From Eucalyptus grandis (Eukaryota; Streptophyta; Magnoliopsida; Myrtales; Myrtaceae): DNA of 64,000 bases. The stretch is from the NCBI RefSeq assembly GCF_016545825.1, contig NC_052618.1:6067398-6131397 (forward strand), given 5' to 3'. This document shows, in pieces, positions 30,697 through 63,914 of the stretch. Each line of letters starts with the position of its first letter. Position 1 is the stretch's first letter. A program made the position numbers and the translations under genes. A model generated the notes under the pieces. That model had not been told where the DNA came from. It saw only the letters and a program-made list of their open reading frames with translations, and made no database searches.

Positions 30697-31945
30697 TGGA
30701 GTCTCAAATGGTCACAACTTTGATATTTCCAAATGACAAGTAAAAATTATACTCCGAAATTGTAGTCAAGTTGTGTGCAAAAATCAACTCATTGCGTGAG
30801 ATAAGTTTTGCGTGAGATATGTTTTGCCATGACCAATGGTTGTGATTGTGCGTGATTCATCATGGGCCATGATCAGTAAAAACATGTCCCTTAATTTGGA
30901 GTGGGAATTTGAGAGAAGCCCGGAGGACGTTTATTTCTCAGTCAATTAGTGCTTTGCCCACCCCCTACTTTAGTATTCCATAAATTAAAGTGGAGTTTCA
31001 AATGGTCATGATTTTGATACTCTCAAATGACAAGTAAAATTACGCTGAATTGCAGTCAAGTTGTGTGCAAAAATTAGCTCTTGCATGAGATATGTTTTGC
31101 CACGATTGATGGCTATGATTGTGCATCATTCATCGTGGGCCAAAATCAGTATAAGCATGTCCTTTAATTTGGGGTGGAAATTTGAGAGCATCCTAGCTAT
31201 CAGGACATTTATTTCTAAGTCAATCAGTGCTTTGCCCACCACTACTTTAATACTTCATTAACTAAAGTTGAGTCTCAAATTGTCATGACTTTGATACTCT
31301 CAAATGACAAGTAAAAATTACGCTCCAAATTGCAGTTAAGTCATGTGCAAAAATTAGCTCTTGCATGAGATATGTTTTGCCATGATCAATGGCTATGATT
31401 GTGCGTGATTAATCATGGGCCATGATCAATATAAGCATGTCCCTTAATTTGGAGTGAAAATTTAAGAGAAGCCTGGCTGTCGGGATGTTTATCTCTTAGT
31501 CAATCAATGCGGTGCCCACATCACTACTTTAGTATTCCATAAAATAAAGTGGAGTCTCAAATGGTCACAACTTTGATACTCCCAAATGACGACGAAAATT
31601 ACGCCTTAAATTGTAGCCAGGTTGTGTGCAAAAATTAACTCTTGCATGAGATATGTTTTGCCATGATCAATGGCTATGATTGTGTGTGATTCATCATGGG
31701 CCATGATCAGCATAAGCAAGTCCCAAAATTTGGGATGGAAATTTGAGAGAAGCCTGGCAGTCGAGACATTTATTTCAAAGTCAATCAGTGCGGTGCCTAC
31801 ACTACTATTTTAGTACTTCACAAAATAAAGTGGAGTCTCAAATGGTCACGCCTTTGATACTCTCAAATGACGAGTAAAATTTTTTGCTCCAGATTGCAGC
31901 CAAATCGTGTGCAAAAATTAACTTTTACATGAGATATGTTTTGCC
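30697..31945 (+). repeat. Satellite-like tandem array, about 280-bp unit, about 4.5 copies
   Basis: Units begin near 30,697, 30,985, 31,263, 31,546 and 31,827 with AGTCTCAAATGGTCAC-like sequence. Each continues through CTCTTGCATGAGATATG, TTTTGCCATGATCAATGG, CATCATGGGCCATGATCAG and a TTAGTATTCCAT-like end. The copies are similar enough to imply recent amplification. The last copy is cut short just before a MITE, and one reverse-oriented copy lies beyond it at 33.1 kb. Confidence 0.9.
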
Positions 31946-32061
31946 AATGAAAATCCTTACTCCATTGACAAAGCATAAAAGAAAGAAAAGAAAAATGAAA
32001 GAACAAGAGACACGGTTGAAAAGTTGTTCCTTTGTGGCCCATTCATGCTACGCCTCCAAAA

Positions 32062-32977: not shown

Positions 32978-33114
32978 AGACTGTAGCATGAATTGATCAC
33001 AAAGGAACAACTTTTCAATACAAGGATTCTTTTGCTACCTCTACCTCTTGTTCTCCCATGTTTCTTTTCTTTCTTTTGTGCGCTGTTAATGGAGTGGGGA
33101 GTTTCTTTGGCAAA

Positions 33115-33395
33115 ACAGATCTCATGCAAGAGTAAATTTTTGTACGCAACTTACTTGCAATTCGAAGTGTAATTTTTACTCGTCATTTGGGAGTATCAAA
33201 GTCGTGACCATTTGAAACTTTACTTTATTTTATGAAGTACCGGAATAGGGTGTGGCCACCGAATTGACTGACTTAGAGATAAACATCCCAACAGCTAGGC
33301 ATCTCTCAAATTTCCATCCCAAAGTAAGGTACATACTTATGTTGACCAAGGCCCATGATGAACGATGCATAGTCATAGCCATTGAAATTTGTGGA
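33115..33395 (-). repeat. Inverted single copy of the 280-bp satellite unit
   Basis: The reverse complement of the 30.7-31.9 kb unit is recognisable by CTCATGCAAGAG, CGTCATTTGGGAGTATCAAA and GGCCCATGATGAACGA. It is more diverged than the direct copies. With the direct array it forms an interrupted inverted pair around the MITE. Confidence 0.75.
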
Positions 33396-36946: not shown

Positions 36947-38407
36947 TGTCGCGACCTCTTTTTTCCGGCGCCCGCAATCGGGTACGAGCGCCTAAGGAGG
37001 CTAATGGCTCGGCTGAAATTAGTTATGCCCGGACTCTCCCAAGTCCACCAATTCACGACTTAATGGTCCAAGTTTTTAACCTGTAAATCAATTTTTAAAA
37101 TGGAGTTGTCACTAATCGATTTGGGTTGGGTTGATTAGAAACCCAAGCGAAGTATTGGGAGAAATACTCACTCTGCGTAACTGCAGAAATTAGGATCGGA
37201 GACTTGATTACACTAGTTAATCACTAATGCCCTTTTGGCACCTAATCTTGTTTAAACCTTGAGGTTTTTTGGATGCTCGAGGGATTTTCCATGCATTTTT
37301 GGAGAAAAACATCTTTTGGGTCTTTTCCTAATTTTTTTTTTTTTTTTTTACATAAAAGGGATTTTTTTTTGGATTTTTTGGTATTTTTGGAAAAATACAA
37401 GTCTTTTTTGGCTTCTTCTGAATTTTTTGCTTTTTTCATGAATTTTTGGCATTTTTTGGAAAATATGGAATATTTTTTAATTTTTTTTTAGTTTTTGGAA
37501 AATAAAATATTTTTTGTTTTTTTAAATTAAAATATTTTTAAATATTTTTCGAAAATAAATTATTTTTGATTTTTTTAAAATAAATTATTTATATATTATT
37601 TATTTAAAATATTATTTATAATTAAAAACGGCTTGCCTGGGTCGTGGGCTAGATCCAAACCGAGCCGGCGACCCGAACATGGACGGGGCCACAACGTGGG
37701 CCCGACTCGAATTTTTTTCCTTTTTCCCTTTTCTTTCTTTTTGGATGAAACGGCGTCGTGGCCGAGCGTTTGGATAAGCCCGGCCCGATCCGACGACCCG
37801 CTCCACGACCCGGATCCGACCAGCTCCGACCCAAATCGTGACCCAACTTCCGCCGCCCCGGAATTTACGGAATCCCTACCCGGTCCCCGATCCGGGTCCG
37901 ACCCAACAACCCGGGTCGCGACTCGAAAAATCGGGAACCCTAGGGTTTCCGAATTGCAGCGTCGAGGAGGGAGAGGACCGAGGTGTAGCGGCGACGGTGG
38001 CGACGGCAGCGATGACTCGGACTACGGAGAGGAGATGGCGATGGCGATGGCGACGGCGACATCATGATACCTGTTCGTGGCAGTGGTGCGATGGGGGCGG
38101 CGACGACGGCGAGACCCACGCAAACCTCCTCTGGCCTCTCTCTCTCTCTCTCGGGCTTGCCCTTCGAGCTCCCCGAAGTCTCTCGGGGACCCCTCCAAGC
38201 TCACCACGCCACGGCCAACCCCGCACTCGAGCTCCCGAAGTCTCTCGGACCCCGAGCTTCGGCTGGCCTCTCTCTTCCTCTTCCTCCCTCTATGTGTCTC
38301 TTCGGCAGAACTTCTCCCTCTCCGGCCGCGAGCCTTTGGATCTGGGCTTGCTCGTCCTCGGCTCCCCTTCTGAAGTCTCTCAGTAGGAAGCACGAAGCTT
38401 TGTAGCC
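36947..38407 (-). repeat. 3' LTR, truncated on its inner side
   Basis: It aligns from TGTCGCGACCTC through the TTTTTGG-rich AT segment, the GC-rich CCGGATCCGACC region and the CT-rich region to AGGAAGCACGAAGCTTTG. It then departs from the right LTR, which continues about 400 bp further to GGTGTCAACA. The missing part is the start of U3 in element orientation, and the polypurine tract beside it is also not visible. A deletion across the LTR/internal junction is the simplest explanation. Confidence 0.8.
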
Positions 38408-38415
38408 TTTGTCTA

Positions 38416-40458: not shown

Positions 40459-40467
40459 CTTGACGGG
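40459..40467. repeat. 9-bp target-site duplication of the MULE, left
   Basis: CTTGACGGG lies immediately before the inverted-repeat terminus GAGAAAATATTCAGTGG. The identical 9 bases follow the other terminus at 57,320-57,328. Nine-base duplications are diagnostic of Mutator-like elements. Confidence 0.93.
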
Positions 40468-41264
40468 GAGAAAATATTCAGTGGTATGTGCGCGCCACGT
40501 CATCTGCTGACCTGGTGCGCACTTACCAATGAAACGCCGGCACGTGTCCCCGAGCGGGACCCGCTGAAAAAGGGGGGGCGCTGGTTTTTGGTCGGCTCGG
40601 CTCGGCTTCGCGCAGAAGAAAGGACGGTCAGCGTATTCCTCCCGCTCAAAATTTTTCTCTCACTTCACTTGAATGGGCGCGGGTCTCTCTCCTCGTAAAA
40701 GAAAAAAGAACGCCGAGAGCCTTCCTCTTCCTCCTCCGCCTCCGTCTCCCGCCTCCGCCTCCGTCTCCGCCTCGGCCTCCGCCCGCCCAAAAGCCTCGCT
40801 GGTCATCTCGCTCGCATCTCGGTCTCGTTCCCGAGCGGCACCAGCTCCCGCCGCCGACCAGCGCTGTCCTCGACGCCGGCCCGCTCGATCGCGAGGGAGA
40901 TCTTGGCGGACTTTGGCGGGGTCGACGGGGGCGAAGAAGGAGAGCCCGCTGCATTTTCTCTCTCTTTTTCAACGAAGCGCGCTTTTCTTCCCGCTCTCGC
41001 CTCTCTCTTCCTCAAGCACTCCTCTCCTCTCTGTCCCGAGCCCTCTCACTCACCCCAAGTGCCCCCTCCTCTCTTTCTCGAGCCCTCTCACTCACCCTAA
41101 CCGCTTCCCTCCTCGCCTCTCTCCTCGTCGCCGTCATCGACTTTCCAGCCGCGGCTCCGAAATCGCCGTCGCCGACCGGCCTCTCGAGCTTCTTTGAAGC
41201 AAAAAAGGTTTGCGAGGCTAGATATACCGGTGGCGGTGCTAAGTTTTGGGGTTTCGCCGCGACC
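40468..41264 (+). repeat. MULE left terminal inverted repeat
   Basis: It matches the complement of 56,509-57,319 from the terminus through GTGCGCGCCACGTCATCTGC, the GGGGGGCGCTGGTTTTTGG and GTCGGCTCGGCTCGG blocks, a CTCCGCCTC-repeat zone, CTTGGCGGACTTTGGCGG, CTCACTCACCC and TTTGAAGCAAAAAAGG, up to GGGGTTTCGCCGCGAC. The two copies differ by point changes and by indels in the CTCCGC zone. GC- and CT-rich TIRs of this kind can act as promoters. The long open frames here (for example from 40,673) are shadows of this repeat. Confidence 0.92.
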
Positions 41265-41623
41265 AGTGAACTTCCAAGATCACGGTCGAGCACCGGCACC
41301 GGCACCTGCACATTGAAGAATTTACTTCTGGGTTCCAGCTCTTTTGTAACGCTTCCTCCGGACATGAATTCGCCGACCGTTTTCATCTCCGCCGTCGCAT
41401 TGGTCCCGCTGTCCAACGGTTCTCTCCGCGTGTCGTCCCGACTTCGCCGCCCAAAGACCCGTTTCTGGGATAGCTCCCGAAGGTTCGAGCCCGTCGCTTT
41501 CTTATGGGTGCCTCGTTTGTAAAGTGTTTTTATTGGACAGAGCACGCCGTAGTGGGAGGGGTGGGGTGAGGGGTTTTGACTATTTGAGGCCGTGGTTGGG
41601 TGACTGATGACACGCGTGATACC

Positions 41624-44600
41624 TGTGTGAAATGAAATATTACGCTCATCGAACAGATGAAGTGTAAGGATGGGTCGAAGAAATTCACCAGAGCCTGTGT
41701 CAATGACGATTTCTCGCGACGCCCGGATGGGACAGATGAGCCAGGTCCTTTTTGAGCCATTTTTTTTTAGCAATTAGTTTGCTGTTGTCCTTGAATTTAT
41801 TGGTTGTTCTCACGTCTTGCATTGTGTTTAGATGGATGAGTTGATACGGAAGGGAAATAAAGACAGAGATTATGAATAGGATAAATAATGGAAATAGTAC
41901 AATAAATATTTCTTTTTGGGCCATAGACCACCCTGGGGCAAAATTGGGAGGAGATGGAAGTAAATTCATGAATCATTGTCGCCCTTCTTTTCATTTTTGA
42001 TCGATGCATATGAAGAACTCCCGCTTTTCTTTCTTGCTGAACGAAGGCACGAATTGTTACCTTAAGCAATTTCACCAGATATTATGGACTTGGCAGGTAT
42101 ATTATGAGGACTTAATATTTTCCTTGGTAATTGTCATGAATAATCGGTTTTGCATCATAGATCAGAAAAAACTGATTGCTTTATTTGATATAAATGCTTT
42201 TGAAGAGCAAAAGTGTATTCGCTTTATATGGGTTGGTCCGCCAACTTCCATAACCGGGCATAGTTGAGCGATGCTCTCCATTGATATATTAGTAATGATG
42301 GTTCATCAAGAAGCTCAGCTGGACTCATGTTAGTTCAGTTGTATTGTGGTTATCACAAACCACGGGTTTCTTTTTGTTAGGCTTGTACTGGTTTTAGATA
42401 TTACTTATCCAAAAAAGACTGTTACTAATCCTTGGCTTTATTTCTTCTTATAGAAAATAGTATGTGTGCAAACACCTAGTAGTGTCCATATCTGGACCTG
42501 CTTTGATGTTTAGACTATTCTAAATGACACCATTACTCGTACCTGGCTTTGTTTCCTTCTTTAGAACATCTCATGTATGTCTGCAGATTTCTTGTAGTGT
42601 CCACCACTAGAGCTACGTACTTTTCTAATTGTAACTTCACTTTCTCTGACTCGATAATGCAGGAATATCAGCATGCCCAAATGGAAAATTTTATTGTCGG
42701 AATGCAGGACATGTTCCTGTCATTATATTTTCTTCGAGAGTAAATGATGGCATTTGTGGTAAGTAGTCCATCGGAACTTTTTCTCCATGGTCTTGGCCTT
42801 TCCAAGCGTTCATATTTCCATGGTCTTGGCCTTTCCAAGCGTACATAACACACATAAGAATATCAGATATGATATTATGAATGGCCAGGGGCAGAAGTCC
42901 TCTTTGCAGATTTTAATTGCTTCAGTGTCAAGGATATCTCTAAACTTCACTGCAATGAGATGTTCCACGCTTTAGTGTCATGGGGCACTGATTAATCATA
43001 ATTGTGCAACAACAGATTTATTTACCTGCTTTAGCAACTTCATGTCCAATGTCTTCCTCACCAACAAACATCACTGTTAAAATATTACTTTACAGACTAT
43101 TTAATGAACCCTAATACCATGAAGACAAGTAAACAAGGGTATATTTCAAGTGATGAACAGATTTGAGACTACTTTTTAGGAACTCTCCAACTTTTGAGGA
43201 CAAGGACATTGATTGTGAGATATATGCATATGGGAAATGAATGGAAACTATTTTTTCGGGTTTACATCTTAAGGATTGTTTCAAAAGCTAGACAAGAGTG
43301 GCTTCTTCAATTGAGAACAGTTTGCATGCTTGGTCTCGGTTCAATCCAAGAAAAGAAAGTGGTCAAAAAAGGTGAGATGGAGAACTGGTTTAGTTCGATT
43401 GATCTTTTCCTTAACGCTTGTCAATGAACAGTGTTTCTGAGAATACAAGAAAAATTGCAGGAAGGGGGAAAGGTTGGAGAGAAAACAAAAGGTGCATTTT
43501 TGAATGAAATCTATGTGCTTATCGTCATATGCAAGGATCTGCAGAGTGATCAATTGTTAGTAAAATGGATGATGAATGTGTGGATTAAGTAACATCATAA
43601 TATTGTAATAAGATACTAATTAATGCTTAGATTAATTTTCCCTTTTCATTGTTTAGGATTTTTGTCAATTGGACAATTACTAAATGCTAAGGTCCTATAA
43701 AAGATTTATATGCTGACATCATCTGACCTTAATAGGTTGACGGAATTACTAGATCGTTCTGGTTCTTGTAACACTGATTTTAGCCTTCGCTGGACAAAGG
43801 TTAACTAGCAGGTGGTCATTCTTTTTCTGCCTCCTCTTAATGTTTCCTCCTAACATATGTTCTTTGCCTGCTCCATGATACTCAGACTGCTGTGACGGGA
43901 GTGACGAATACAGTGATAAAGTGAAGTGCCTGAATACATGTTGGGAAACTGGAAAAGCAGCATGAGATGAGCTAAAGAAAAAAATTGCTGTGTACCAGGA
44001 GGGCGTTGCCATATGTAAACAGGAGGTGGAACAAGCTAAAGTAGCTCTTGCAAAAGACAAGGAAGAATTGTCAAAACTGAAAAGTGAGGAGAAAGTACTG
44101 AAAGTGCAATTTGAACAGCTTAAAGGTCTGGTTTTTCCTAATTTGGTGGTATCTTGGCAAAATAACTTGAATTTAGTTGTCATGATCTCATTAAACCCGA
44201 GTTTGCCCTTAAAACGTAGTTGCCGGCTACTGCACATATATATCATCTTTGTTCATACCGCATCCAAGGATAGCAGCATATTATGGTCTATGGAATTGGA
44301 AAACTCACACTGATGATAATGAACTCATCATAGTATAGCTTCGTATAGATATTTTACCGTACTAACTGTTTGGTAGTTTTACCAAACAACGAAGCATTTT
44401 CTGAATGAGTGTGGATGTTGTGACTATTAGATATTGATGTGCCAGATGTATCCCAGCCTTGTAGGTAAATGGATGGAAGATTTGGGAAGCATTTGGTTTA
44501 CCTCACTAAAGAAATCACTTCATCCTCTAAACGAGTGTCTAGTAGTATTATGATGTTTGGATGATTAGCTATATTTGGGAAAAATAGTGAAAATGGACGG

Positions 44601-45020
44601 GATAGGTGGAAAGTCAGAAGTTTGAAATTTCTGTGAGAGAGAAATAGAGGGAAAATTTGAATTTTTAGATACTCTCTCCAAATTCTGGCCCTTGGTGCTC
44701 TCAAAATAGCCTTAGTGTCATGGTCACTATTTGCTATCTCTGTTGTTGTACATGTGCTTAGACTACCCTTCTTCCATGCTTTGGCACTTTATGATGCTTA
44801 GTTTAAGATTTCTTTTACATGCGTTCGTTTTTGTGTTACTATCAATTGTTTTGTTGCTTTTTCATCTCTAAATATAGAGCGCAAAGAACAAATAGAGAAA
44901 GCAGAGGAGAAAGAATGAATGAGAAAAGAAAAAGAAGAGAGGGAAAAAGAGAAGCCGAGGGAAAGCTGGCAAAGAGAAAGCAAGTTTCAGCAGGGTTGGG
45001 TGTTGGAGATCTTGGATCAC
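41624..45020 (+). pseudogene. Glucosidase II beta-subunit fragment (N-terminal half)
   Basis: The normal protein is the ER-lumen regulatory subunit of glucosidase II in N-glycan trimming. Exons seen: about 41,624-41,744 (CKDGSKKFT then PDGTDEP); 42,663-42,758 ([24 protein letters not shown]); 43,886-44,125 (CCDGSDEY, the second LDL-receptor-A-like motif, then a coiled coil YQEGVAICKQEVEQAK); 44,878-45,020 (RKEQIEKAEEKE, charged coil). Splice phases join correctly. Lesions: the first motif lost its cysteines (FSRRPDG where FCDCPDG is usual), and stops TGA at 43,963-43,965 and 44,916-44,918 both sit where Arg is expected, consistent with CGA to TGA change. The C-terminal MRH lectin domain is absent. 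The first exon and signal peptide are not clear. Confidence 0.88.
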
Positions 45021-45615
45021 GTAAGGATGGGAGGAGGCAGGCTAGCAGAGAGGAACAAGAGAAAATCGAGGCTGAGATGAGAAAGAATGCCTACTAATTG
45101 GCCTATGCTAAAGCAGAGGAGGCATCTAGGTTACTGTGGGTGGAGCAAACAAGAAAGGGAAGAGATTCTAAGATGTTTTGCTGTTGCTTTTCTTGAATCT
45201 CTTGGGCCTACCAAAACCCGCAGTGAAAGACTGCAATTCCATTCCGCCAAAAACATACTGGTGGGACTGGATTTGTATCCGAGGACATAGCTTTGAAGTG
45301 TCGTGGAAATATTTTCAAGGGAAGAGGTGTGATTGCTTCGCTTTTAAGGTTTGTGACCTGTGGATATGGGTATCATCTTAGTGGTATCTTCGTCTTGCTA
45401 TGCAAGAAAACTGATCTCCAAAAAATAATTATGACAAATAAAAAAGGAAAATCTACATTGCATTATTATATCATTTCAGCTTTGCGCTGTAAGTGTGAGT
45501 CTAGTTATTAGTATTTTAGCTTCAATAATTCTCCATATTGCGATATATTTCATTTTTTCTATCGGTTCATTTATATCTTCCATTCTAATTGTTTTGGCCG
45601 AATTTTAATCTATAG
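45021..45615 (+). other. Unassigned stretch inside the MULE
   Basis: Short open segments at 45,087-45,381 look exon-like but are frame-broken, and I could not assign them to glucosidase II beta or to the RDR downstream. They may be a further captured fragment or intron. Confidence 0.35.
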
Positions 45616-46722
45616 CTCCCTCCTCATACAATTCATATTCGACCGTCGATGATCAAGGTTGAAAAGGACCCCAAGCTTTCAGATATCAGGACCGTTGATG
45701 CACTTGAAATAGTACAAACAAGGTACAACCAACATATTTCGCCAGCAGGCTATCATTGTTTTAATTAATTCTCTTGAGGTTCTTATGGTACCTCTGACCC
45801 CTAGTAATGTGATCACAGTGTTATCTGTGGGTTTGTTGCCTGGCTATGCTATTGATTTGTTGATTATTGTGTTAAGATTTTCCTTTGGAGTTAGCTAGTT
45901 AAAAGACCCTTACATAAACAGACTGAAAAGTTAGCGGCTTTCTTGTTCTTTCAGCAGTTTAATTTGAACATGGGACATGTTTTTCTTGTGAATTACTAAA
46001 TCCCATTGCTTTTTGTTTGAAGCTTTTTCTGCCATCAAATTTTACCTTTTCGGAAGAACTGATTAGACCTTGGTCCTCATTGATGCAGTAATAAACCAAA
46101 GCCTACATATCTTTCAAAGATTTTGATTGCACTTTTAAGCTATGGCGGGGTCCCTAATGAATTTCTTTTGGACATGGTGGAGAATGCTCTGGGAGATGCA
46201 AATAGTGTCTTCTAGGAAACGAAAGCAGCTCTAAGAGGTAGTATTCTTCCAACATTTGGACTGTTGAAATAATGTCTATTCTTAAAACAGTCCAAAAAGA
46301 GATTTTTCTCCAATTTTTTTTTCTATACTTGGATGTGCTTCTTTTTTTTTCTTGATTCAAAAAATTCATAAGTAAAAAAATGCATCTCTATTCATCTTTG
46401 CTGCTTTTACTTCCCCTGGGTGCGTATTTCCTTCAATTGCTATTTGACGTGTAAACATTTTCCCTTGTGTTTTCCTTTGTTCTTTTACCGTATGAACAGT
46501 TTTGGTGAATCATGGTGAGAAGGATGGTTTGACTGCAGCCGAATGATCTTATCTGGGATTCCTCTCGGACGAAACATACCTACAGAATCGTCTGTCCATC
46601 CTGATGAACGATGAAAAGAAGAGTTTGAAAGGAGGAAGGATTCATATTCCAGATTCTTACTATCTAATGAGGGCAGCCGATCCCACAGGAATTCTTAAAA
46701 GTGATGAAGTTTGTATTATCCT
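45616..46722 (+). pseudogene. RNA-dependent RNA polymerase fragment (RDR3/4/5-like)
   Basis: Cellular RDRs of plants make double-stranded RNA in silencing pathways. This gamma-clade type is poorly understood. Three exons: 45,616-45,722 (IHIRPSMIKVEKDPKL), 46,089-46,237 (SNKPKPTYLSKILIALLSYG, VPNEF), and 46,500-46,722 (MILSGIPL, then KSLKGGRIHIPDSYYLM and DPTGILKSDEVCIIL). Junctions rejoin in phase (ACA-AG|T). Lesions: TAG at 46,213-46,215, a 1-bp loss near 46,540 and a compensating 1-bp gain near 46,565. The fragment stops before the region carrying the catalytic DxDGD motif of the family, and the N-terminus is missing. It is a central slice of the gene. Confidence 0.85.
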
Positions 46723-49700
46723 GTATGTACTCGTAATCTCATCTTTTGTGCTTGATTTATCATTTAGCATGAGTCTCGCTAAAGAAAACTCAAGAAAAAC
46801 GGTCATTTTTGTAATTTTAATTTTAGAGTGCATCCCTTGGTTTTTAGTGGCTTGGTATGGTTATGGAATAATTTCTAACCATGCCGTAGGGTAAAATTCA
46901 AAATTTAGGTCTGCATATGATTTGGCTTATTAAGATTCAAGTATGTGCCACTTGTTGACCTAAGCATATGCCTACCCATATAAACCGTTGACTCAGCTCC
47001 TACCTTTCACAGTTTCAGAGCCAAACTTGGTAAAGCCTCTACTTGTTTCTTGTTTCCTCGTATTGCCAGTTAAGGAAACTATCAAATTGCACAAAGAAAT
47101 TTCATCTTTTTATGATTTGTTTGCAGAAATGTTTCTGGTTGTGATTTATGCAGGTCGTTTTGGTACATGCACCAATAAAGGATAATAACCAAAATAAAGA
47201 TTACAGCATCAGTGGACTTTATGGATTTTGTTTGAATGGCTTTCATCTGTGGCACCTGCAATACGCTCACAGAATCTGATTTCTCTGTAAACACAGGAAA
47301 CTTAGTAATTAACTGCTCTCTACGAGACCAAGCTAAATCTGGCAAAGCATGCAACTACTATATAAAACAAATACAACTTTGCTATTAGGAACTGTGCAGT
47401 CCCTGAATCAGCATATAGAGCAAGGCAGAAGTGCATCACGGACAAGACCCATCAGTATCCTTAACATGGACATTGCAGAGTCTGACCCTTCCCTATTCCA
47501 GAGGCTCTTCCACTAGGTGAAAAGAGATAGTAAGTTCCTGATGGCCAAAGTTAATATTTGCTCTATATAGTAGTCCCAGTTCTTTGCCAGATCTTACTCG
47601 GTTGTTACGGGGTAAGAAGCTGATTGCTTATTTTCCTCCTTGCTCTACAATGCAACCCCAAACGTAATGCAAAACTTCCATATTAGGCTCATTTGACCTG
47701 CTGATTTGGCTTGGATATGGTCATTGGTGTGCAAGAGTCGTGATATCTGCCATTTGACCATTTGGTCCACAAGTTTTGCATCGGTTTCAGTTAATGGTGC
47801 TTAAGAAATGGATATTTTCCCTTCCGTGTGCTGTACCCATCTGAACTGATTGTTTTTTTATTAGTTATGACAATAAATGCGCGGAAGAGACAGGATTTCG
47901 GCAAGATATATCTTCTTTCTTATGATGTTATTTCTTTGTATTAGGAGTATGGAGTCACAAGATAAATTATGTTGAAGCACTAATGCATCCTCTAAAACTT
48001 GCTATCAAGTTGCTGCAGCATTAAATGGTGAACTTTTTGCAGATGGCAGGGTAGAGATTAGAAGAATGACCGTAGCAGGTGATGAGACGGATCACAGGTC
48101 TGGGAAGGTGTTTGAGTGGAGAATTGAAAGCCTTTTCCCGACTGGGCTCTTCTCTCTTTTGAGCTGCCCAGACCCATTGATCACACAGTTCACCGGCAAC
48201 TTCAGTGCATATGGGATTTTCCAGTGATTCATCGAGAAGTGGATGGACAATCTCTAAATCTGGCAACTAAGGCTTCATAGGAGTATTGACTTCATAAAGG
48301 GAAAATGTCATAGCGTTTCCGGGCACTTGCTAAGGCTCTTTAGTTATGCTTTTGTTAAGTAGACTTTTCAAAAAGTTCTTCGTCTCGTACGTTAGTCCTC
48401 ATCCATTCTACTAATGGGATATATTTGCCCTTTAAAGTATTGGATACTCTTGTTTTCCTATAGAGAATATGTTGCTCTGCACATAAAATCAGATTATGCA
48501 AGCAAGTTTATCTGGTTGTGATTTTTTGCTTGTTTTCTCATTACCTATGCTGAGGTGCCTTAAGCCAGATGAAGAGTGTAAGATGTTCAGACCGTTGGGC
48601 TTTGTTTCAAATGGGTTTCGTCTACAATATCGGCACTTCCAAGTCCTAGATATGTCCAAGGGTATTATCTGGATTTTTTGGTTTCTTGGCCTGATCTTAC
48701 CTAGAATTGGTTCATATCACCATGGCAAGATAGAAAGGATCGAGTAAACCTTCATAAAGTCAGCATGCGCTTTGGGCACCTTGGATTGGCACATACTATC
48801 CACAAGTGTCCTTAGAAGGTTGTTAATGGATAAGTCTTAACTTAAAAAGGTGGTGTTTTCCTGTGTTATGGAATTTAGGGCCCATCAAACAAACTATGGA
48901 ATTCTTTCATGGGTGGGACTGGAAGCATTAGGGTGCTTTGTAGGTGGTGGCATAAATTATTTTCTTGTAGACTTTGACCGGTGGCAGTGAGTAATGAAAC
49001 CGCAAAGATAGGGACGATTAGCCAAATTTGGACACCTCTTGTGTAAAGCTTTTGTTATAGAAAATAATATTATAGTGTTAGTCGATGTACATTTGTCTTA
49101 CTCAAATGTTGCAGGTACTACATTAGCATAAAGATGAGTTAGTGCAGGCATTTAACCAGAGTGAGGTTGCTGAGTGGCTCTATCTGATACATCACCCTTA
49201 GATCAAATCAACTGGTGCATTTACCTTTCTTTTCTTCTCTTGCCTTGTTCTATCTCCCCAAGCTTTTGGAAGGTTCTTTTGTGAGACTAAAAGCTTGTAT
49301 CATATATTATATCGTCAAAACATCACAAATTTTCTATGTCGATAAGGGTTCATTTTCTGGTTGTAGTGTGATGAATTTTTGCATAATGAGCAATACTAGC
49401 AACCATGAAAAGCCATTGTTAAAACTCTACCAAGCTTTCAAGAGGACAAAGGGGAAATGCACATATAGTTTACCTGATTTGTGCATCATTTCTTATAGAT
49501 TCATATTAATCGAAATCGGGACTCTGAGATTGGATGTGTAGAATTTTATCTCTTCAAGCACAAAAAACATACCTGGTGAAATTGAGTTCTTGCCCACATT
49601 ATTTTGCGAAATTGAAGTAGTGCATTTTGTATGACACTGGTATTCAATAGTTGAGGGCCAAAAAGAACTCGAACACAGCATTTCGATGTTTGAAAAACAA

Positions 49701-49841
49701 AGTTTTCAAGATATCTTTTAACAATACAAAGAGTGAGAATTAAGAACCACCATATTCTTTATAACAAGAATTAAAAATTCAAGATTGTTTTGATTTCCAA
49801 AACTAACTTAAAGTTAACTAATGTCGATTTTGTTTGTATAT
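46723..49841. other. MULE interior, unassigned
   Basis: About 3.1 kb of AT-rich sequence between the plus-strand and minus-strand gene fragments. A minus-strand open frame at 48,021-48,266 (PDLEIVHPLLDESLENPICT, then EVAGELCDQWVWAAQKREEP) has coding-like composition but is unrecognised. No transposase signature is seen. This is where the two opposite sets of captured fragments meet. Confidence 0.4.
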
Positions 49842-50155
49842 CTACACACTCAAAAGCTGCAGAAATTCTTTAGATCCTCTTCCTTGCCATACCAACTTGG
49901 TATTTATCTTCAAAATGTGAGGATACAGATCCTTGGAGGAGTTCCTAACCAATCCCCTCGGTGACTCTAGTAGCAAGTGATATATCTGCACAAACATTCG
50001 ATTATTTATATGCATGCGTTGTTTCAAATGCCATTTACATATGCACCAATATGTCTTTAGTTGTTCAAATTGAATAGGATTGGAGAAACTAAAACCTTGA
50101 GGAGACTTCTTCTCATCGTAGAGCAGCTGCTGCAATGGATATGGGGCTCCTCCTG
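49842..50155 (-). pseudogene. Exon-like fragment, unrecognised
   Basis: The minus-strand frame begins after an acceptor-like tract with GGAPYPLQQLLYDEKKSPQG and FSFSNPIQFEQL, and continues to YPHILKINTKLVWQG. The composition is protein-like but I do not recognise the family. It may be a captured exon of the same unknown gene as the block at 50.4-51.3 kb. Confidence 0.3.
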
Positions 50156-50399
50156 CAAAATTAGAGGATAAAAACAGAGAATACGTTCAGCACTTGAAAA
50201 GGAACAACAAGAAAGCATTTGAACTAAACCTGGTAAGTAATCTTTATACACAGCAGGTCTACATTGACGAACCTTCTCAAATCACAACATCTTTCAACCT
50301 CAATAGAAGAAAGATGAAATGTTGTCAACCAAGTTTTACAGTTTTCGACTCTTCCTCCAGCTTTACCATTAAAATTCCAGCCAATGAGAGAATAACCAC

Positions 50400-51270
50400 T
50401 GAAAAACATTCAGATTGTGCAGTTTGATATCACTGTCAATGCTTATATCAACTTGTCCGTCATCAGCAAGTCCAGCCCCGTCTCCCGCATCTAAGTTGAT
50501 TTCGCCAAGTACTATGTCGATGTCTCGTCCCCGCTTCTCCGGAACAAGTAAACTAATAGACTTAAGGATGTCTACAATACATACATAAACATAAAACAAT
50601 GAACTTGCATCATTACCTCTAACACGACAGCCCACCAGCCCAAAACCCAATCAACCTGAAAAGCAGAAATGGGTCAAATGAATTAAAGATGGATTCTAAG
50701 ATCGATCACCAGAATCAAACAACAAAGTTGGTCATAAGTAGATTTACCTGCTGAAATTCACTCTGGCAGTGCCGCTTATGCACATTGGTGTATCATTCAC
50801 ATGACGGTCTCTTTTCTTTGGCTTTACTGGTGGGCTTTTCAACTCTCCAGAAAGCTTCTGCACCACAAAATCAATTTAAAATATATCATCAAGCCTCAAT
50901 AAAAGTATCTTATATATGTCTATGCGTAATATGTCGGTAATGAAAAGGCCAATGTAAAAGTATCTACCTTTTGTTTATTTGGACCATTTGAACCTTCTTT
51001 TGCTCCATTTTCTTTCATGGCAGACCATGAACCCTTGTTTACAAACGTTCTTTTTCTTAATTGTGAATTACCTATTTCAGGTATTGCAGCTTTCTTCTTT
51101 GATCCATGTCTCTTAAAAGTAGCAATAATTTGCTTGCCATCATCATTCCTGCTCTTAGAAGCAGCAATAATTTGCTTGCTGTCATCATTCCTGCTCTTAG
51201 AAGTAGCAATAATTTGCTTTCCATTGTCAGTCATGCGTTTCTTCTGAATGTCATTTTTTCTACACAAGCT
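50400..51270 (-). pseudogene. Lysine-rich, possibly chromodomain-protein fragment
   Basis: Three exon-like minus-strand blocks. About 50,960-51,267 contains three near-identical KQIIA-type repeats separated by SKSRNDD-like spacers, then GSKKKAAIPEIGN. About 50,749-50,857 reads KLSGELKSPPVKPKKRDRHV and ends ISGTARVNF before a GTAAAT donor. About 50,400-50,655 starts VDWVLGCRV after an acceptor and includes EINLDAGDGAGLADDGQVDI. The VDWVLGCRV start is reminiscent of a chromodomain in CHD3-type remodellers (CHR4/PICKLE-related), but this is a weak resemblance. No stop disrupts the individual blocks. It lies within the MULE, so it is most likely a captured fragment. Confidence 0.35.
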
Positions 51271-51709
51271 TTCTCTTCTTAGCTCTCTTTACTAGCACCA
51301 ATTCCAAGAGCAGCTTGACCATCTGGACTAATGAATCAATCAGAACATTGAGAATTTTTCTCTGATGCATTTTGCATTCCTTTTTTCAGAGCCTTCAATT
51401 TTTAATAGCATGTTTCTTGCTCATGCCAATTAGTGTTAGCAAAGCATTTGAACATTACATCTTTATTTTCCACATGCCAAACAACTGACTCACTAAAAAA
51501 GGATTAGTTTGTGTCACCATATGGTTATGCAGATCGCAGTGTCATCTCATATAAAGCCTTTTCTCCATAATGTCTTGTCCAATATTGGTAGCCCCGTGCA
51601 TTTTGTTGCATTAACTAATAGATATAAAACAAACTATCTCTCACCCATTTCCTACGTTCAACTTATGGTAACCAAGACACAGAATGGCGAAGTATCTTAT
51701 ATTACGTAC

Positions 51710-54700
51710 ATCAGGAGATTCAAGACCTTGGCCAACTATAAACATCACAGTAACCATGCAACGAACTTGGTGCCACAAAAATGCACTGCCCTTAATTTTG
51801 AAACACCACAGTTCATTACTTTCCAACCTGCATAAAAGGAAGTTCCTTAAAATCATAAAAGACACTGCAAACTAGATTGGTCTTATTAATATAATAACTT
51901 GTACATGAGAGAAACTGGCCAAAATGAAAAGGCCCTTTTTTTTGCCTTTTGATTTCTCTTTCATCATACCAACAAAAATATAGATGCATCTTTGCATCTT
52001 TTCTTAACTTATAAAGATCTCAAAAAACATCTACCGGAACCAACCTCTTATCACAAGAAGAGAGTTCAAAGGATGTTATATGACGCTTGTAGTTGTGGAC
52101 ATTAAATGCATCCATCTTACAAAATTTCTGAAATCATGATCCCCCACAAACTTTTGGCCTGCACTCTCCATTGCCTAGCATAAAAACAGAGAAAGGACTT
52201 CTATCAAATGAAATGAAATAGTCATAATATCAATATTTTGGTTCAAAATCAGCATAAAGTAGTTTATGAAATGAAGAGTTACCCTAATATCCAAATTATC
52301 TCTCCAAAAGAAATATTTGTACTCCCTGCTCATACAGCTAAACCTGCAAGATATTGAGGAAGACAAAATCATGTGAAAAGGCAAACCCCACCTACGTTTC
52401 CGCAATCATTAACATTATAAAATCAACAAATTGGAGGCATCTCTAATGCATTTCATTAACAGAATCCCATCATATCGAATCAAAATAAAGTACACCATGC
52501 CACCATGAGAAGGAAAACAACCTTGCACTAAAATCAATTGGAACAGGACACCAGCCAGTTACTCGGATATCTTTGGGTAAGACTCGATTCAACACTCTCA
52601 CATAATCAATTTCCGCGTCTAAGACTGACATATAAATGAAAGTAAGCATCATATTGAACATGATAATTTTTCATCATAAATAATTCGTTGCAGCAAATCA
52701 AATAAAGTAAGAATCTGTAATGACTGCATAATCCCAACATATATGCACTTTCCTGCAGAATACCCTGCTAACTTGGAAATGCTAACCACTTAGTCTGAAA
52801 TAAGCCACTTTTGATTAGGAAAGCAGTGTGATGTGTACACGTATGTATAGGAATATGTATATTTAATGGATGCTTTATTACCGTACCAGCAGTTTATTTC
52901 CAGCTTGACATCAGCCTTGCACAAAATACACCGATTTTTAACAATTAATGTTTTCTCTTTAATGGGTCTGTAGCAATTGAATTGAGTCACAAATTTCCAG
53001 TGAAGTTCAAACTTCATTCAAAAGCAATTTAAAGACTCATAGCAATAAAATAGAGCTCAAAACAATTAAAGATCAGTCACTTAAACAACATACCATCTCT
53101 ATCTATAGAAAGTCCCCAATTGTTTGCATCATCTGTGTTCTTAGGTCGCAGGTTTGATCGTAGAAACAGGGAAATGACCTGCATCAGAAAGCAAACCATA
53201 GCCTACTCATGATGCACCTAAGAAAAGAAGCAAACAGGAGATAATAGAACAACAACATTAATAATAAAAGAAAGAGCCTACTGCAAACATAATTATCCTA
53301 GGTAAAATGACAATTGATACTAGACACTTGTCCACGTCATAAAACCTTCTTGTATCTTGTGGTGGTATCTCTATCAACATTTCAATCATCTTGCAAAGAG
53401 ACTCCCAGCTATCAGAACTCTCGCTCTTTGGTACTTTCTCATCTCCAATTCATATCATTGCTTCTCTAACAAAAATTCACTTCAGAACTTGCACTCCAAT
53501 TACAATATTCTATGATCTAATTAACACCCAATCTCAAATTCCTTGAGAAAATCAAGCTTCACATATTGCTCCTAACCGATTCTTATACGGTAAGATTATA
53601 ATCAACAAAAGCTCTCGTGAAAGGAACATCATCATGAATATTCACAGTAATCACATCTATCACGAGGATGGAAATATATGGTTGTTATAAGGAAAACTCT
53701 GATAATTGCCCCTTGTGCCCATACTTCCACAATTGCATTTTAGTAGTTAAAAGTACTAAGTAGTACACATGCAACAGTTAACCATCTTTTTCCAGAAGCC
53801 CTTAAACATGTTTCTGAGTAGCCTTGTCATCTGTTTTTCCAAGTTTAAGAAATAATCAAAATTACAAAATACAACTGAGATTGTGCTCGTCTACTAAATA
53901 TAAGTTGACACGCGTTTTTGCAAGAAAATGCTCAACATTTAATACAGGTTGAAACAAAGACCCACATTCTCTCCGCAAGGAAATGGTGATTGCACGGAAT
54001 AGTGAGCCAAAGATAAAACCCAATCTAGCGTCTGTGAACAAAATAACAATCTACCGATCCATCAAGAAACTTAGAAGCGGAGTAGCAGTTTTTGAACTTG
54101 TCCAAAAGATGAAACTCCTTTGTCTGTTCTGCCACATCTTGAGTACTGTGACTTTTTCTTGTCACCAACTAAAAGCTTAGTCTTCTCAAGAGCTTTAAAA
54201 TTTCAGACTGCATGACACCAAAATCAGTATGATGGGATTCGGATCAAAATGAATTAGGTGTCTGCCAAGAATGTCAAAAATGCCAAAATAGAACATCTGC
54301 TGATTTTAAATTGATAGCATCCATGATTTAAACATTCGCATTGCACAATATTAAAGAACTCTTCCATGTATCTTTGATAATAAGCAGAAACTCAGTGACT
54401 TTGCTTGCATGGTACAAACTGATCTACTAGTGTACCGAAAGATAGTGTCCTTACTGAAAACATAAATTTAAATCTTATGAAGAAGTAGAACCCTCTTTTA
54501 TAGCACATATTTTCCATTAGGCCCAATGCTGAAATGAATGAAGATTTTGGGGAGAAGATGGAATGTAGGACCGACCTCGACAGTTGGATCCAATTGTGCT
54601 TCAGAGGCAAAACCATAAAACCTGTAAAATAAAGCAAAAGTGAAGCGATTTCATTGTGCCAAAGAAAAGCTAGAGTACATTCAATGGCCTAAGGCACGAC

Positions 54701-56064
54701 ACATTCAGGATTTCATATGTCTAGGAAATTAGTCAGACTTGCCATGTGGTGTAACAGAAAATTATCGAACACATTTCACGAATCACATCCACTACACATT
54801 TACTTGTGACAGATTCTGCAACTTAAGAGATTTCTGCAGTGACACCCTAGTTTTAGAACATGAATGCTTCCATAGCAGCAATATCCTCAAATTATTAATA
54901 ACAGCTAAACTTTCACAATTTCTAGAGTATTTTATATTCCATGCTGCCTCTTAAGAACAGACAAAATCAAGACAAAGGGAAAGATAATATACTATACCAG
55001 ATTAAAATCGTTTTATGATGCAACAGTTGCATTGTATGACAAACAGTACAATGGCTACAATCTGTACCTTTGTCCAAAATACATCAATCTTAGAGCAACA
55101 TATTGCCTTGGATGGTGTTCAAGAATTCCTGTTTTGAAATCTGCAGCAGGAGGTATCACAACATTCACTAAAATATGGCTGCACATTGAAAGAACTTTAG
55201 CCGAACAGCATGCTCATCTCTATGGAAGCAGGGTTGTAAGAAATTACTAACTCAAACCCTATAAAACTTAGTATTAAAAACTATTCGCACAACAATATTG
55301 ATGCTTTGATTATGTCTAGTTTTAGCGCTTAGGGTCGCTTGTTTTTCTTTAGACTGTTTGGAGTCACAACTAACACAGCCTGCTAAGCAACTCCACAAAA
55401 CTTCACCACTATAGTATCCTGTAACCTCTCAAAATTTGCAAGAAGGCCACTTAATTATTGTTTGACTTTTGAACTTAAACCGTTCCTCCTGTTCCTGAAA
55501 CAGGCTGACCTCCCAAGTCACTGAAAACCCCTCGACTGGAACTTGAAGAGCAATAAACATACAAGATCTCAGTGGTTCAGATTAAACATGCAATTGGAGC
55601 TCAAAGAGTTTGACCAGTAGCACTTTTTTTCTTCCTAGTCTTCTTGTCCAGCTTCATTGATTTGCCATTCCCATCGACCACTCCACTTCCCTCTACGACA
55701 CAACCAATCTTGTCTTCCATCTGCACAAAATGAAGCAATAAGCTCAAGTACATCGCATTCAGCACGAAACATTGAATTTCGCTTATCCCCTATATGCATG
55801 GCCAATAACAAAGAAGCGCCAACCAAAAGATGCATGCATTCACTCAAACCACCGACAAACAATGCATGCCCGACTCAAACGCACGCTCAACCCAACACCG
55901 AAACCGGCTTCGAGCTGCTACAAAGATATCAAGATTCATTCGAGAAGTCCTAAAGACAGTGAAATCCTCTCGAAAAGTGAAAAGGGAGAATCGAAATGGC
56001 TCACCTTTTGACAGCAACATCCAGAGAGTCGAGAAGAAAGGTCGGCGTTCTGCTTCTCCAACTC
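51710..56064 (-). pseudogene. tRNA pseudouridine synthase 3 (PUS3/DEG1-like) fragment
   Basis: The normal enzyme makes pseudouridine at tRNA positions 38/39. Minus-strand exons: 56,005-56,064 (QELEKQNADLSSRLSGCCCQ, N-terminal coil), about 55,640-55,720 (MEDKIGCVVEGSG, KKTRKKK), 54,576-54,621 (FYGFASEAQLDPTVE), 53,094-53,178 (LFLRSNLRPKNTDDANNWG), 52,522-52,618 (DYVRVLNRVLPKDIRV, PIDFSA), 52,283-52,343 (REYKYFFWRDNLDIR), 52,045-52,174 (ESAGQKFVGDHDF) and 51,710-51,827 (IKGSAFLWHQVRCMV, IGQGLESPD-like). The exon with the catalytic-Asp motif GRTDKGV was not found between 54.6 and 53.2 kb. A 1-bp deletion near 52,118 shifts the frame. C-terminal exons are absent. Confidence 0.88.
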
Positions 56065-56292
56065 CTGAAATGCGATGGGGGCCAAGTCGCGAAACCGACA
56101 GAGTTAGCACGCGGCAGCTCGTACAGCAATCGAAACTCCCACACACACTTGCGGGTACGAACCGCTCGATCGAGTTACAGCTTCAAGGAAATCGCAATCG
56201 AATTTTAAATAGAAAAGAAAGGAGGAAGAAGCGTTTCCAATGGCGCGCACTAGAGAGAGAGAGAGTACGTTGATTGTCGTCTCCTGGAGATA

Positions 56293-56508
56293 ATGGATCC
56301 GGGAGCGAAGGGCGTCGACGAATCTACATCGGGCGAAGTAGACATTGCCTCTCCCGCTTCGCCCGCTGCGCTCGACGTTCGCTCCGCGCTCTTACTCCGG
56401 CAAGACAGAGGCAATAGAAAAGAAAAAAAGGCAAAGGAGAAAGAGAGGTCTCACGGTACCCATACGCCTCTCTCTCCTCCACCACACATCCCTCGCGGCC
56501 GTAACGGC
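56293..56508 (+). pseudogene. Possible first exon of another captured gene
   Basis: An ATG at 56,293 opens MDPGAKGVDESTSGEVDIA, then SPASPAALDVRSALLL, with typical plant N-terminal composition and high GC. It runs head-to-head with the PUS3 5' exon (56,064, minus) and collides with the right TIR at about 56,509. I do not recognise it. It may be the start of the gene that neighboured PUS3 in the donor locus, captured together with a shared promoter region. Confidence 0.3.
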
Positions 56509-57319
56509 GTCGCGCGAAACCCCAAAACTTAGCACCGCCACCGTATATCTAGCCTCGCAAACCTTTTTTGCTTCAAAGAAGCTCGAGAGGCCGCCGGCAG
56601 CCGGCGATTTCGGAGCCGCGGCGGAAAGTCGATGACGGCGACGAGGAGAGAGGCGAGGAGGGAAGCGGTTAGGGTGAGTGAGAGGGCTCGAGAAAGAGAG
56701 GAGGGGGCGCTTGGGGTGAGTGAGAGGCTCGGGACAGAGAGGAAAGGAGTGCTTGAGGAAGAGAGAGGCAGAAGCGGGAAGAAAAGCGCGCTTCGTTGAA
56801 AAAGAGAGAGAAAATGCAGCAAAGCTCTCCTTCTTCGCCCCCGCCGTCCGACCCCGCCAAAGTCCGCCAAGATCTCCCTCGCGACCGAGCGGGCCAGCTC
56901 GTGGACAGCGCACAGTCGGGCGGCGGGGAGCTCGGTGCCGCTCGGGAACGAGACCGAGATGCCGAGCGATGACCAGCGAGGCTTTTGGGCAGGCGGAGGC
57001 CGAGGCGGAGACGGAGGCGGAGACGGAGGCAGAGCTGGAGACGGAGGCGGAGGAGGAAAGAGGAAGGCTCTCAGCGTTCTTTTTTCTTTTACGAGGAGAG
57101 AGACCCGCGCCCATTCAAGTGAAGTGAGAGAAAAATTTTGAGCGGGAGGAATACACTGACCGTCCTTTCTTCTGCGCGAAGCCGAGCCGAGCCGACCAAA
57201 AACCAGCGCCCCCCCTTTTTCAGTGGGTCCCGCTCGGGGACACGTGCCGGCGTTTCATTGATAAGTGCGCACCAGGTCAGCAGATGACGTGGCGCGCACA
57301 TACCACTGAATATTTTCTC
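56509..57319 (-). repeat. MULE right terminal inverted repeat
   Basis: It is the complement of the left TIR. The inner boundary is near GTCGCGCGAAACCCC and the outer terminus is CCACTGAATATTTTCTC. Differences from the left copy lie mainly in the GGCGGAG-repeat zone (about 56,990-57,055). The long minus-strand open frame 56,392-57,114 is a low-complexity shadow. Confidence 0.92.
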
Positions 57320-57328
57320 CTTGACGGG
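57320..57328. repeat. 9-bp target-site duplication of the MULE, right
   Basis: CTTGACGGG is identical to 40,459-40,467. Removing the element and one copy restores a continuous retrotransposon sequence GGGTGGTTCTTGACGGGGG. Confidence 0.93.
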
Positions 57329-62058: not shown

Positions 62059-63218
62059 TGTCGCGACCTCTTTTTTCCGGCGCCCGCACCGGGTACGAGC
62101 GCCTAAAGAGGCTAATGGCTCAGCTGAAATTAGTTATGCCCGGACTCTCCCAAGTCCACCAATTCACGACTTAATGGTCCAAGTTTTTAACTTGTAAATC
62201 AATTTTTAAAATGGAGTCGCCACTAATCGATTTGGGGTGGGTTGATTAGAAACCCAAGCGAAGTATTGGGAGAAATACTCACTCTCGCGTAACCAGAGAA
62301 ATTAGGATCGGTGACTTGATTACACTAGTTAATCACTAATGCCCTTCGGCACCTAATCTTGTTTAAACCTTGAGGTTTTTTGGATGCTCAAGGGATTTTC
62401 CATGCATTTTTGGAGAAAACATCTTTTGTCTTTTCCTAATTTTTTTTGACATAAAAGTAATTTTTTTGGATTTTTTGGTATTTTTGAAAAATACAAGTCT
62501 TTTTGGTTTTTTCTGAATTTTTTGGCTTTTTCATGAATTTTTGGCATTTTTTGGAAAATATGGAATATTTTTTATTTTTCTTTTTATTTTTTGGAAAATA
62601 AAATATATTTTAATATTTTTTGTTTTTTTTTAAATTAAAATATTTTTTAATATTTTTCGAAACTAAATTATTTTTGATTTTTTAAAAATAAATTATTTAT
62701 ATATGATTTATTTAAAATATTATTTATAATTAAAAAACGGCCCGAGCCTGGTCCGCGGGCCGGATCCAACACGGGCCGGCGACTTGAACACCTGGGAGCG
62801 AGCCCAACTCGGATTTTTTTCCTTTTTCCTTTTTTTTTTCTTTTTTGGATGAAACGGCGTCGTGGCCGAGTGTTTGGATACGCCTGGCCCGACCCGACGA
62901 CCCGCTCCACGACCCGGATCCGACCTGACCGCGACCCAACTTCCGCCGCCCCCTAGAATTTACGGAATCCCTACCCGGTCCCCACTCGGTCCGACCCTAC
63001 AACCCGGGTCGCGACTTGGAAAATCGGGAACCCTAGGGTTTTCGAATCGCGGCGCCGAGGAGGGAGAGGACCGAGGCGCAGCGCAGCGACGGCAGCGATG
63101 ACCGGACTAGGGAGAGGGAGATGGCGATGGTGATGGCGACGGCGACATCACGATACCTGTTCGTGGCAACGGCGCGATGGGGGCGGCGACGATGGCGAGA
63201 CCCACACGAACCTCCTCC

Positions 63219-63260
<42 letters not shown>

Positions 63261-63914
63261 GCTTGCCCTTCGAGCTCCCCGAAGTCTCTTGGGGACCCCT
63301 CCGAGCTCACCACGCCACGGCCAACCCCGCACTCGAGCTCCCCGAAGTCTCTCGTGGACCCGAGCTTCGGCTGGCCTCTCTCTTTCCTCTTCCTCCCCTC
63401 TCGTGTGTCTCCGATAGAATTTCTCCTCTCCGCCGCAAGCCTTCTGGATCCGGGCTTGCTCGTCCTCGACTCCCCTTCGAAGTCTCTTAGTAGGAAGCAC
63501 GAAGCTTTGCAGCCTTCGATCGTTCTCGGCATGCCCTTTGCCATCGCTTCGGGGAGCCCTATATATAGGCGAGGGGGACAGAGCTTCGACCGCCGGTCCT
63601 CGTGTGCCGAACGGCCTTCGTCGGCCGAACTGACGTCCCATCCACCACCTACCCGTCCTTCAGTGCGTCGCCAGCTCCCCCATGTGCGTCGCTGTCCTCT
63701 CCTCCTTTCCGGCATCGAGCCCTCCACGCGTGTGGACGATGGAGGAAGATGAAGACCCAGCTAGGCCGGGCTGAGGCAGAAATGGGCCTCACAGCCCATG
63801 CGAGGGCTACGCTTCTTTTTCTTTTTGTTTTTTCTGCTTTTCTAAAATGACAAAATAAAATAAAAATAAAAATAAAAGAAACCTAATTAAAAACAAATAA
63901 TTTAGGTGTCAACA
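62059..63914 (-). repeat. 5' LTR, full length (1,856 bp)
   Basis: Plus-strand start TGTCGCGACC and end GGTGTCAACA, so in element orientation it reads TGTTGACACC...GGTCGCGACA. It contains an AT-rich TTTTTGG zone, a GC-rich zone and a (CT)n microsatellite at about 63,222-63,257. The last about 400 bp (63,515-63,914) have no counterpart in the left LTR. Open frames across it, including those of about 200 codons on the minus strand, are low-complexity artefacts. Confidence 0.88.

Follow-up and report, generated by a model that had tools for sequence, protein, structure and literature searches.

A 17-kb non-autonomous Mutator-like element carrying fragments of at least five host genes in Eucalyptus grandis

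How did pieces of several unrelated genes, introns included, come to lie between two long inverted repeats in the genome of Eucalyptus grandis (616.5 Mb)? Here, we analyze a stretch of 64,000 nucleotides (C7:6067398-6131397), referred to as the window, and identify the block at positions 40468-57319 (16,852 bp) as a Mutator-like element (MULE) of the Pack-MULE type, i.e., a non-autonomous element of about 17 kb with a multi-gene cargo. We put the probability of this reading at roughly 0.93. An original prediction, made from the letters of the window, had proposed a single mobile unit with captured gene fragments; its main elements, i.e., terminal inverted repeats (TIRs), a 9-bp target-site duplication (TSD), and intron-bearing pieces of host genes, have all stood up, and no transposase domain was found in the interior.

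Several lines of evidence support this reading. First, the ends of the block are those of a MULE. The left tip, GAGAAAATATTCAGTGG, starts at 40468 and the right tip, CCACTGAATATTTTCTC, ends at 57319; read inward, both are GAGAAAATATTCAGTGG. The left TIR (40468-41263, plus strand) has 796 bp and a GC content of 61%, and the right TIR (56509-57319, minus strand) has 811 bp. The predicted repeats of about 0.8 kb and their matching termini were confirmed to the base, and alignment of the two TIRs gave 93.7% identity over 820 columns, with 34 substitutions per 789 aligned positions plus 12 gaps overall, and 4 differences in the outer 262 bp. The sequence CTTGACGGG directly precedes the element (40459-40467) and is repeated without a mismatch directly behind it (57320-57328). 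By these long TIRs and the perfect 9-bp TSD, where 9 to 11 bp are expected, the element is a Mutator-like element. Helitrons lack both TIRs and TSDs, and CACTA elements have a 3-bp TSD and CACTA termini; with its 9-bp TSD, long TIRs and GAGAAAAT termini, the element in the window belongs to neither group. We set aside dating the insertion from the divergence of the TIRs because TIRs can differ already at insertion.

Second, the same termini occur throughout the genome. The terminal 17-mer has 204 matches (100 forward, 104 reverse), and the reversed pattern, used as a control, has none. We tested 13 pairs of termini, i.e., 12 convergent and mostly long pairs from the first 100 of the 204 places (C1-C5) and the pair in the window. 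Identical 9-bp flanks were present in 9 of the 13 pairs, and in 10 if one mismatch was allowed, compared to none of 156 swapped pairs at either stringency. Because of these two controls, a chance origin of the termini is excluded. The pairs with a perfect TSD delimit elements of 14.1, 24.2, 14.6, 28.9, 13.9, 20.1, 26.8 and 0.57 kb in addition to the element in the window, the TSD of the 26.8-kb pair being of low complexity (CTCTCTCTC). The TSD of a 21.5-kb pair has one mismatch, and pairs of 13.4, 28.7 and 17.8 kb have no TSD. Thus, the proposed search for further elements with these TIRs yielded a family that includes giant relatives with shared cargo.

Third, the block is present end to end at two other loci. 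A copy of 17,087 bp at C5:1147885-1164971 is flanked on both sides by AGTTGGGAG, and one of 17,027 bp at C11:5620319-5637345 is flanked on both sides by CTTTTGATG. The modules are 95-98% (C5) and 94-96% (C11) identical to those in the window, and the GIIb, middle and PUS3 modules described below are colinear in both copies. The space corresponding to 49801-51699 measures 1,898 bp at C5 and 1,883 bp at C11 compared to 1,899 bp in the window, and the presence of this part is read from the spacing; an annotated CHR4-like protein apparently lies on C11. Two copies on C1 and one on C10 have the same module order with a shortened GIIb end, and a copy on C9 is rearranged. At least 4.58 of the 4.81 kb of the PUS3 segment recurs at nine places, i.e., the donor on C6, which lacks the subterminal sequence of the element, and eight places with it, including the window. 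The counts from the GIIb and middle-module searches are lower bounds, 40 of 48 and 40 of 81 candidates, respectively, having been scored. The shared cargo and the differing, perfect TSDs CTTGACGGG, AGTTGGGAG and CTTTTGATG establish that the Pack-MULE transposed as one mobile unit after its cargo had been acquired.

The cargo is arranged in two arms. The left arm runs inward from the left TIR, from glucosidase II beta (GIIb) to an RDR gene, and the right arm runs inward from the right TIR, from PUS3 through a CHR4-like fragment to TFIIB, and the 5' end of one captured gene adjoins each TIR. A bias of Pack-MULEs towards the 5' ends of genes has reportedly been seen before. The proteins most similar to the interior are those of E. 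grandis. Six-frame Pfam scans of the interior found a PRKCSH-like and an RdRP domain on the plus strand and PseudoU_synth_1 on the minus strand, and sequences in PDB matched glucosidase II beta and tRNA pseudouridine(38/39) synthase, i.e., PUS3; a PDB search with a single RDR exon gave no match. In the left arm, the GIIb fragment (41254-44979, plus strand) has its ATG at 41364, keeps its introns and contains frameshifts and stops. Exon mapping with relatives places residues 1-255 at 41364-45074, and the DNA match to the donor ends at 44979. A small extra module (44972-45150, plus strand), which shares 8 bp with the end of the GIIb match, has separate matches at no fewer than six other genomic places. 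The RDR5-like fragment follows on the plus strand (DNA module 45161-46715; span 45161-46753) with in-frame stops, its exons at 45254-46753 corresponding to residues 384-628 of a Syzygium RDR5. Between the arms lies a module without strand or gene assignment (46940-48898), for which scans against Pfam and PDB found no protein match. It recurs with the same ends and 94-95% identity at C8:62300197-62302155 and C8:62367547-62369510, which, judged from these matches, may be its donor or a separate repeat.

The right arm lies on the minus strand. The PUS3 fragment (51391-56404) covers the 5' untranslated region (UTR) and the exons up to the one that ends at 51707, keeps its introns and has apparent frameshifts; residues 1-321 of E. 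grandis PUS3 map exon by exon to 56345-51707. Between this fragment and the right TIR lies MULE subterminal sequence (56405-56508), which is absent from the PUS3 donor and has 15 further genomic matches where PUS3 is unmatched. A gene for a signal peptide considered at this right inner end (56463-56395, minus strand) was ruled out, the stretch being MULE subterminal sequence adjoining PUS3. The CHR4-like fragment of a nuclear gene (50747-51377) matches the annotated E. grandis protein LOC120295421, the joined exons being 100% identical over 126 residues and the individual exons 100% (51234-50968) and 97% (50860-50747). The name CHR4 is our assumption from motifs in the protein P0005, and Pfam did not find a PHD domain in the relatives. 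The fragment also contains a 42-bp in-frame tandem repeat (51110-51235), the unit number of which varies among annotated proteins of different loci. The TFIIB-linked module (48900-50409) contains C-terminal TFIIB exons at about 50278-49817, identified by the relative protein P0008 (PF00382, E 1.1e-8), which aligns at 50409-49774, and by the NCBI name of P0003; its part at 48900-49800 is present at no fewer than five other places. Three short pieces, one of them TFIIB, had no Pfam match alone.

Thus, the element carries fragments of at least five host genes (GIIb, RDR, PUS3, TFIIB and CHR4-like). The fragments of GIIb, RDR and PUS3 with introns that had been predicted were borne out by Pfam and by mapping exon by exon, and PDB sequences further confirmed the first and the last of them. 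Many of the exon edges inspected coincide with GT/AG sites or are no more than a few bases away, although the edges are the ends of tblastn matches and some are inexact. The “at least one unknown gene” of the original prediction holds in that further cargo is present, and this cargo can now be named as TFIIB and the presumed CHR4-like fragment. The in-frame stops in GIIb and RDR and the apparent frameshifts in PUS3 indicate decay, and the captured genes are unlikely to function as the original proteins.

No transposase domain was found in the interior. A six-frame Pfam scan covered the plus strand from 41300 and the minus strand to 56500, parts of each TIR thus being scanned on one strand, and at E≤1 gave no match to MULE, FAR1 or SWIM. 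By this result, the element is non-autonomous as Pack-MULEs are.

The donor loci could be located for two of the captured genes. The PUS3 piece matches C6:37715097-37720139, where the match stops on both sides, and no TIR match was found in the 0.46 kb beyond the 5' end of this donor. A full-length PUS3 of E. grandis is listed in an older annotation as EUGRSUZ_F02671, the tag of which denotes chromosome F; this gene is probably the C6 locus. For GIIb, the best candidate is C10:22027399-22031249, matching from 41254 of the window, with a weaker second match at C10:22077607-22081456; no TIR match was found in the next 1.0 kb beyond its 5' end, and an annotated GIIb protein, apparently on C10, carries a low-quality label. 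With donors on C6 and C10, no single ancestral locus gave both genes, and the adjacency at one locus that would have spoken against capture was not found. Likewise, the Corymbia genes for GIIb (BT93_C1404) and PUS3 (BT93_F3250) are on contigs that differ in length, and their locus tags denote chromosomes C and F. An E. globulus protein, ACJRO7_016982 (P0141), is a PUS3-derived chimera with the same residue as the captured copies at PUS3 position 33, and this residue suggests that the capture may be older than the split of the two eucalypts.

To place the element in its family, we fetched eight giants, i.e., the elements of 14.1, 24.2, 14.6, 13.9, 20.1, 28.9 and 21.5 kb and the 17.8-kb pair, which has no TSD. 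Matches to GIIb, RDR, TFIIB, CHR4-like or PUS3, in differing combinations, were present in seven of the eight, and none in the 17.8-kb pair; the matches to the interior of the window element are 87-97% identical. PUS3 was found in one of the eight, and GIIb together with PUS3 in none. Transposase-type sequence (PF10551, FAR1 or SWIM) is present in three of the eight: the 20.1-kb element has a frame of 500 amino acids with PF10551 (6.7e-31) and SWIM, the 24.2-kb element has FAR1 and SWIM, and the 21.5-kb element has FAR1, MULE and SWIM across two neighboring frames. Between the proteins of the 20.1- and 24.2-kb elements, identity is 70-79% in the main aligned pieces; for that of the 21.5-kb element, it is 50%. 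The 28.9-kb relative was dropped as a clean size record, as it contains copia-like pieces; the other giants were checked for nested insertions against these copia-like pieces and the gag gene of the window. The two TIRs of several giants match the TIR of the window very unequally, e.g., in the 28.9-kb element, 90% over 754 bp at one end and 76% over 168 bp at the other, which hints that their ends were recruited from different subfamilies. The 21.5-kb relative (C2:40564640-40586240) contains internal inverted copies of its own end sequences and may be nested or composite.

We suggest that the TIRs of about 0.8 kb serve as recognition sites for a transposase provided in trans; this enzyme would excise or copy the element, leading to re-insertion with a 9-bp target duplication. 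Probable helpers are the giant relatives that have the same termini and FAR1/MULE-type transposase sequence. Template switching in the course of gap repair may have added the cargo stepwise from genomic DNA, and the assembled block would then have been amplified, the copy in the window being inserted into an older retrotransposon with long terminal repeats (LTRs). The 8-bp overlap of the GIIb match and the next module (44972-44979) would be expected if the template had been switched within a short stretch common to both, and capture by template switching has a precedent in animals (PMC8277862). At the level of the family, we see about even odds that the giant MULEs of Eucalyptus (∼14-29 kb), some of them bearing a transposase, form a lineage in which host gene modules with introns are shared and re-assorted between elements.

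Some observations weigh against this account. Mobility is read from copies in the assembled sequence and no transposition event was observed, and the capture mechanism rests on a single overlap and the animal precedent. Two bases are missing near the left-TIR tip of the C5 copy. Identity to the GIIb donor candidate drops to 89% in the 5' part (95% over the rest), and the donors traced are those of GIIb and PUS3 among all the captured pieces. At three PUS3 positions, the captured copies side with outgroups and differ from EUGRSUZ_F02671; therefore, this gene changed later or differs from the exact donor. Finally, the FAR1-type genes in the giants could be captured host FRS genes, because FRS genes derive from such transposases.

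How the block came about can be explained in other ways. The alternative that fares best concerns its history: instead of growing from a small element, it could have arisen by deletions from a giant MULE that had a transposase and already contained much of the cargo. The 20-24 kb giants with transposase sequence, two of them with perfect TSDs and one with a mismatch, contain GIIb, RDR, CHR4-like or TFIIB as such an ancestor would; however, none of the fetched giants combines GIIb with PUS3, and we regard this origin as possible but doubtful. It is rather improbable that the block is a composite, in which two MULEs once carried the intervening host DNA together and the middle was later altered by deletions and captures. 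The unequal ends of the giants look as if they came from different MULEs, but the TIRs in the window are similar over their whole length, and one intervening stretch cannot supply donors that lie on different chromosomes. An ancestral gene cluster that underwent segmental duplication, its TIR-like ends being a coincidence, would explain why the module order is kept at several loci, but the three different perfect TSDs lie exactly at the TIR tips and the donors and the Corymbia locus tags lie on different chromosomes, and we rule it out as an ancestral cluster and give it hardly any weight. An assembly artefact uniting unrelated contigs, which the original prediction had named as a danger and to which such repeats can mislead assemblers, is just as improbable because the ∼17-kb block was assembled independently on C5 and C11 with different flanks, and annotated proteins, apparently on C10 and C11, share the CHR4-like exons, the one on C10 also the TFIIB junction. 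We therefore retain the Pack-MULE with transposed multi-gene cargo as the explanation of the block.

How unusual is this element among plant MULEs? Like the element described here, the rice Pack-MULEs of Jiang et al. (2004) have MULE TIRs, host gene fragments and no transposase; however, as cited in PMC6431247, they are mostly 1-2 kb and none exceeds 7 kb, compared to 16.9 kb, at least five identified donors and arms that each begin at a gene 5' end in Eucalyptus. Pack-MULE cargo from several loci has been noted before (PMC8903248, PMC9168764). The closest in size are grapevine MULEs, i.e., Mutavine-1 (17.7 kb), Mutavine-18 (16.2 kb) and Jitvine-2 (14.4 kb), with 9-bp TSDs where found, TIRs of 710 bp in Mutavine-7 and one family that holds introns and exons of a host gene, as in the Eucalyptus cargo; by contrast, these families are listed with transposase sequence, and the sections of that paper available to us do not describe a multi-donor, transposase-free 17-kb block (PMC2528002). 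The Pack-MULEs and tandem-TIR MULEs of tomato share long TIRs, a 9-11 bp TSD and a multi-copy Pack-MULE family with the element, but tomato MULEs are commonest at 1.0-1.2 kb with TIRs of typically 100-500 bp (PMC3310237). Barley Hvu_Abermu is also unusually large for a MULE and has a 9-bp TSD, but measures 8.2 kb, has TIRs of 138-145 bp and encodes its own transposase (PMC9168764). MULE TIRs in general are given as typically 100-500 bp (PMC3310237) or 14-500 bp (PMC6446971). The Eucalyptus element is, therefore, unusual in size, TIR length and donor number, and large size is common among its relatives: the predicted exceptional size and number of donors hold in comparison to rice Pack-MULEs, but not against the larger elements with the same termini in E. 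grandis and the 16-18 kb families of grapevine. Among the best matches listed for Pack-MULEs or MULEs in Eucalyptus, giant MULEs and gene capture, the titles and abstract openings included none describing these elements. While grapevine MULEs of 16-18 kb were already known, giant, modular Pack-MULEs with several donors appear to be new.

The surroundings of the element are themselves repetitive. It lies between two LTRs of about 1.46 kb each (36947-38409 and 62059-63516, both minus strand), which are 87% identical (K 0.095) and belong to the retrotransposon that was the target of the insertion. The flanks of this retrotransposon contain a gag gene (PF03732, 60310-60675, minus strand), and no pol genes were found on the minus strand, which was scanned. 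A substitution rate of 1.3e-8 per site per year, which lacks a calibration in eucalypts, would put the age of the retrotransposon at about 3.7 My; the MULE would have been inserted more recently. Elsewhere in the window are a broken LRR receptor-like kinase gene (25629-28159, minus strand) with LRRNT_2, LRR and Pkinase in separate frames, a fragment of the sodium/bile acid symporter family (13238-13615, minus strand; PF01758, E 4e-6) and about four tandem units of 281 bp (30808-31946) with a related inverted piece at 33108-33385.

These elements bear on gene annotation and on the biology of MULEs. In the E. grandis protein EUGRSUZ_I00104, which has a chromosome-I tag, the translated TIR tip EKIFS stands directly before PUS3 5' UTR-like sequence, and EKIFS is present in 1 of 248 fetched proteins; both this protein and LOC120295421 appear to be transposon cargo, which affects the annotation. 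Eukaryotic cut-and-paste elements have been suggested to have a length limit, with efficiency falling once the cargo exceeds ∼6 kb (PMC6431247); this limit is put to the test by the three end-to-end copies of a 17-kb block, each with its own TSD, together with relatives of at least 20 kb with perfect duplications. Surveys with a size limit, such as a ceiling of 20 kb between the TIRs (PMC3310237), would overlook the largest of these elements. With two donors, several junctions and many members, the order and the mechanism of gene capture become datable and testable. If the giant MULEs of Eucalyptus do re-assort a common pool of modules, gene capture would be a recombining, self-amplifying modular system rather than something that happens by isolated accident in small non-autonomous elements.

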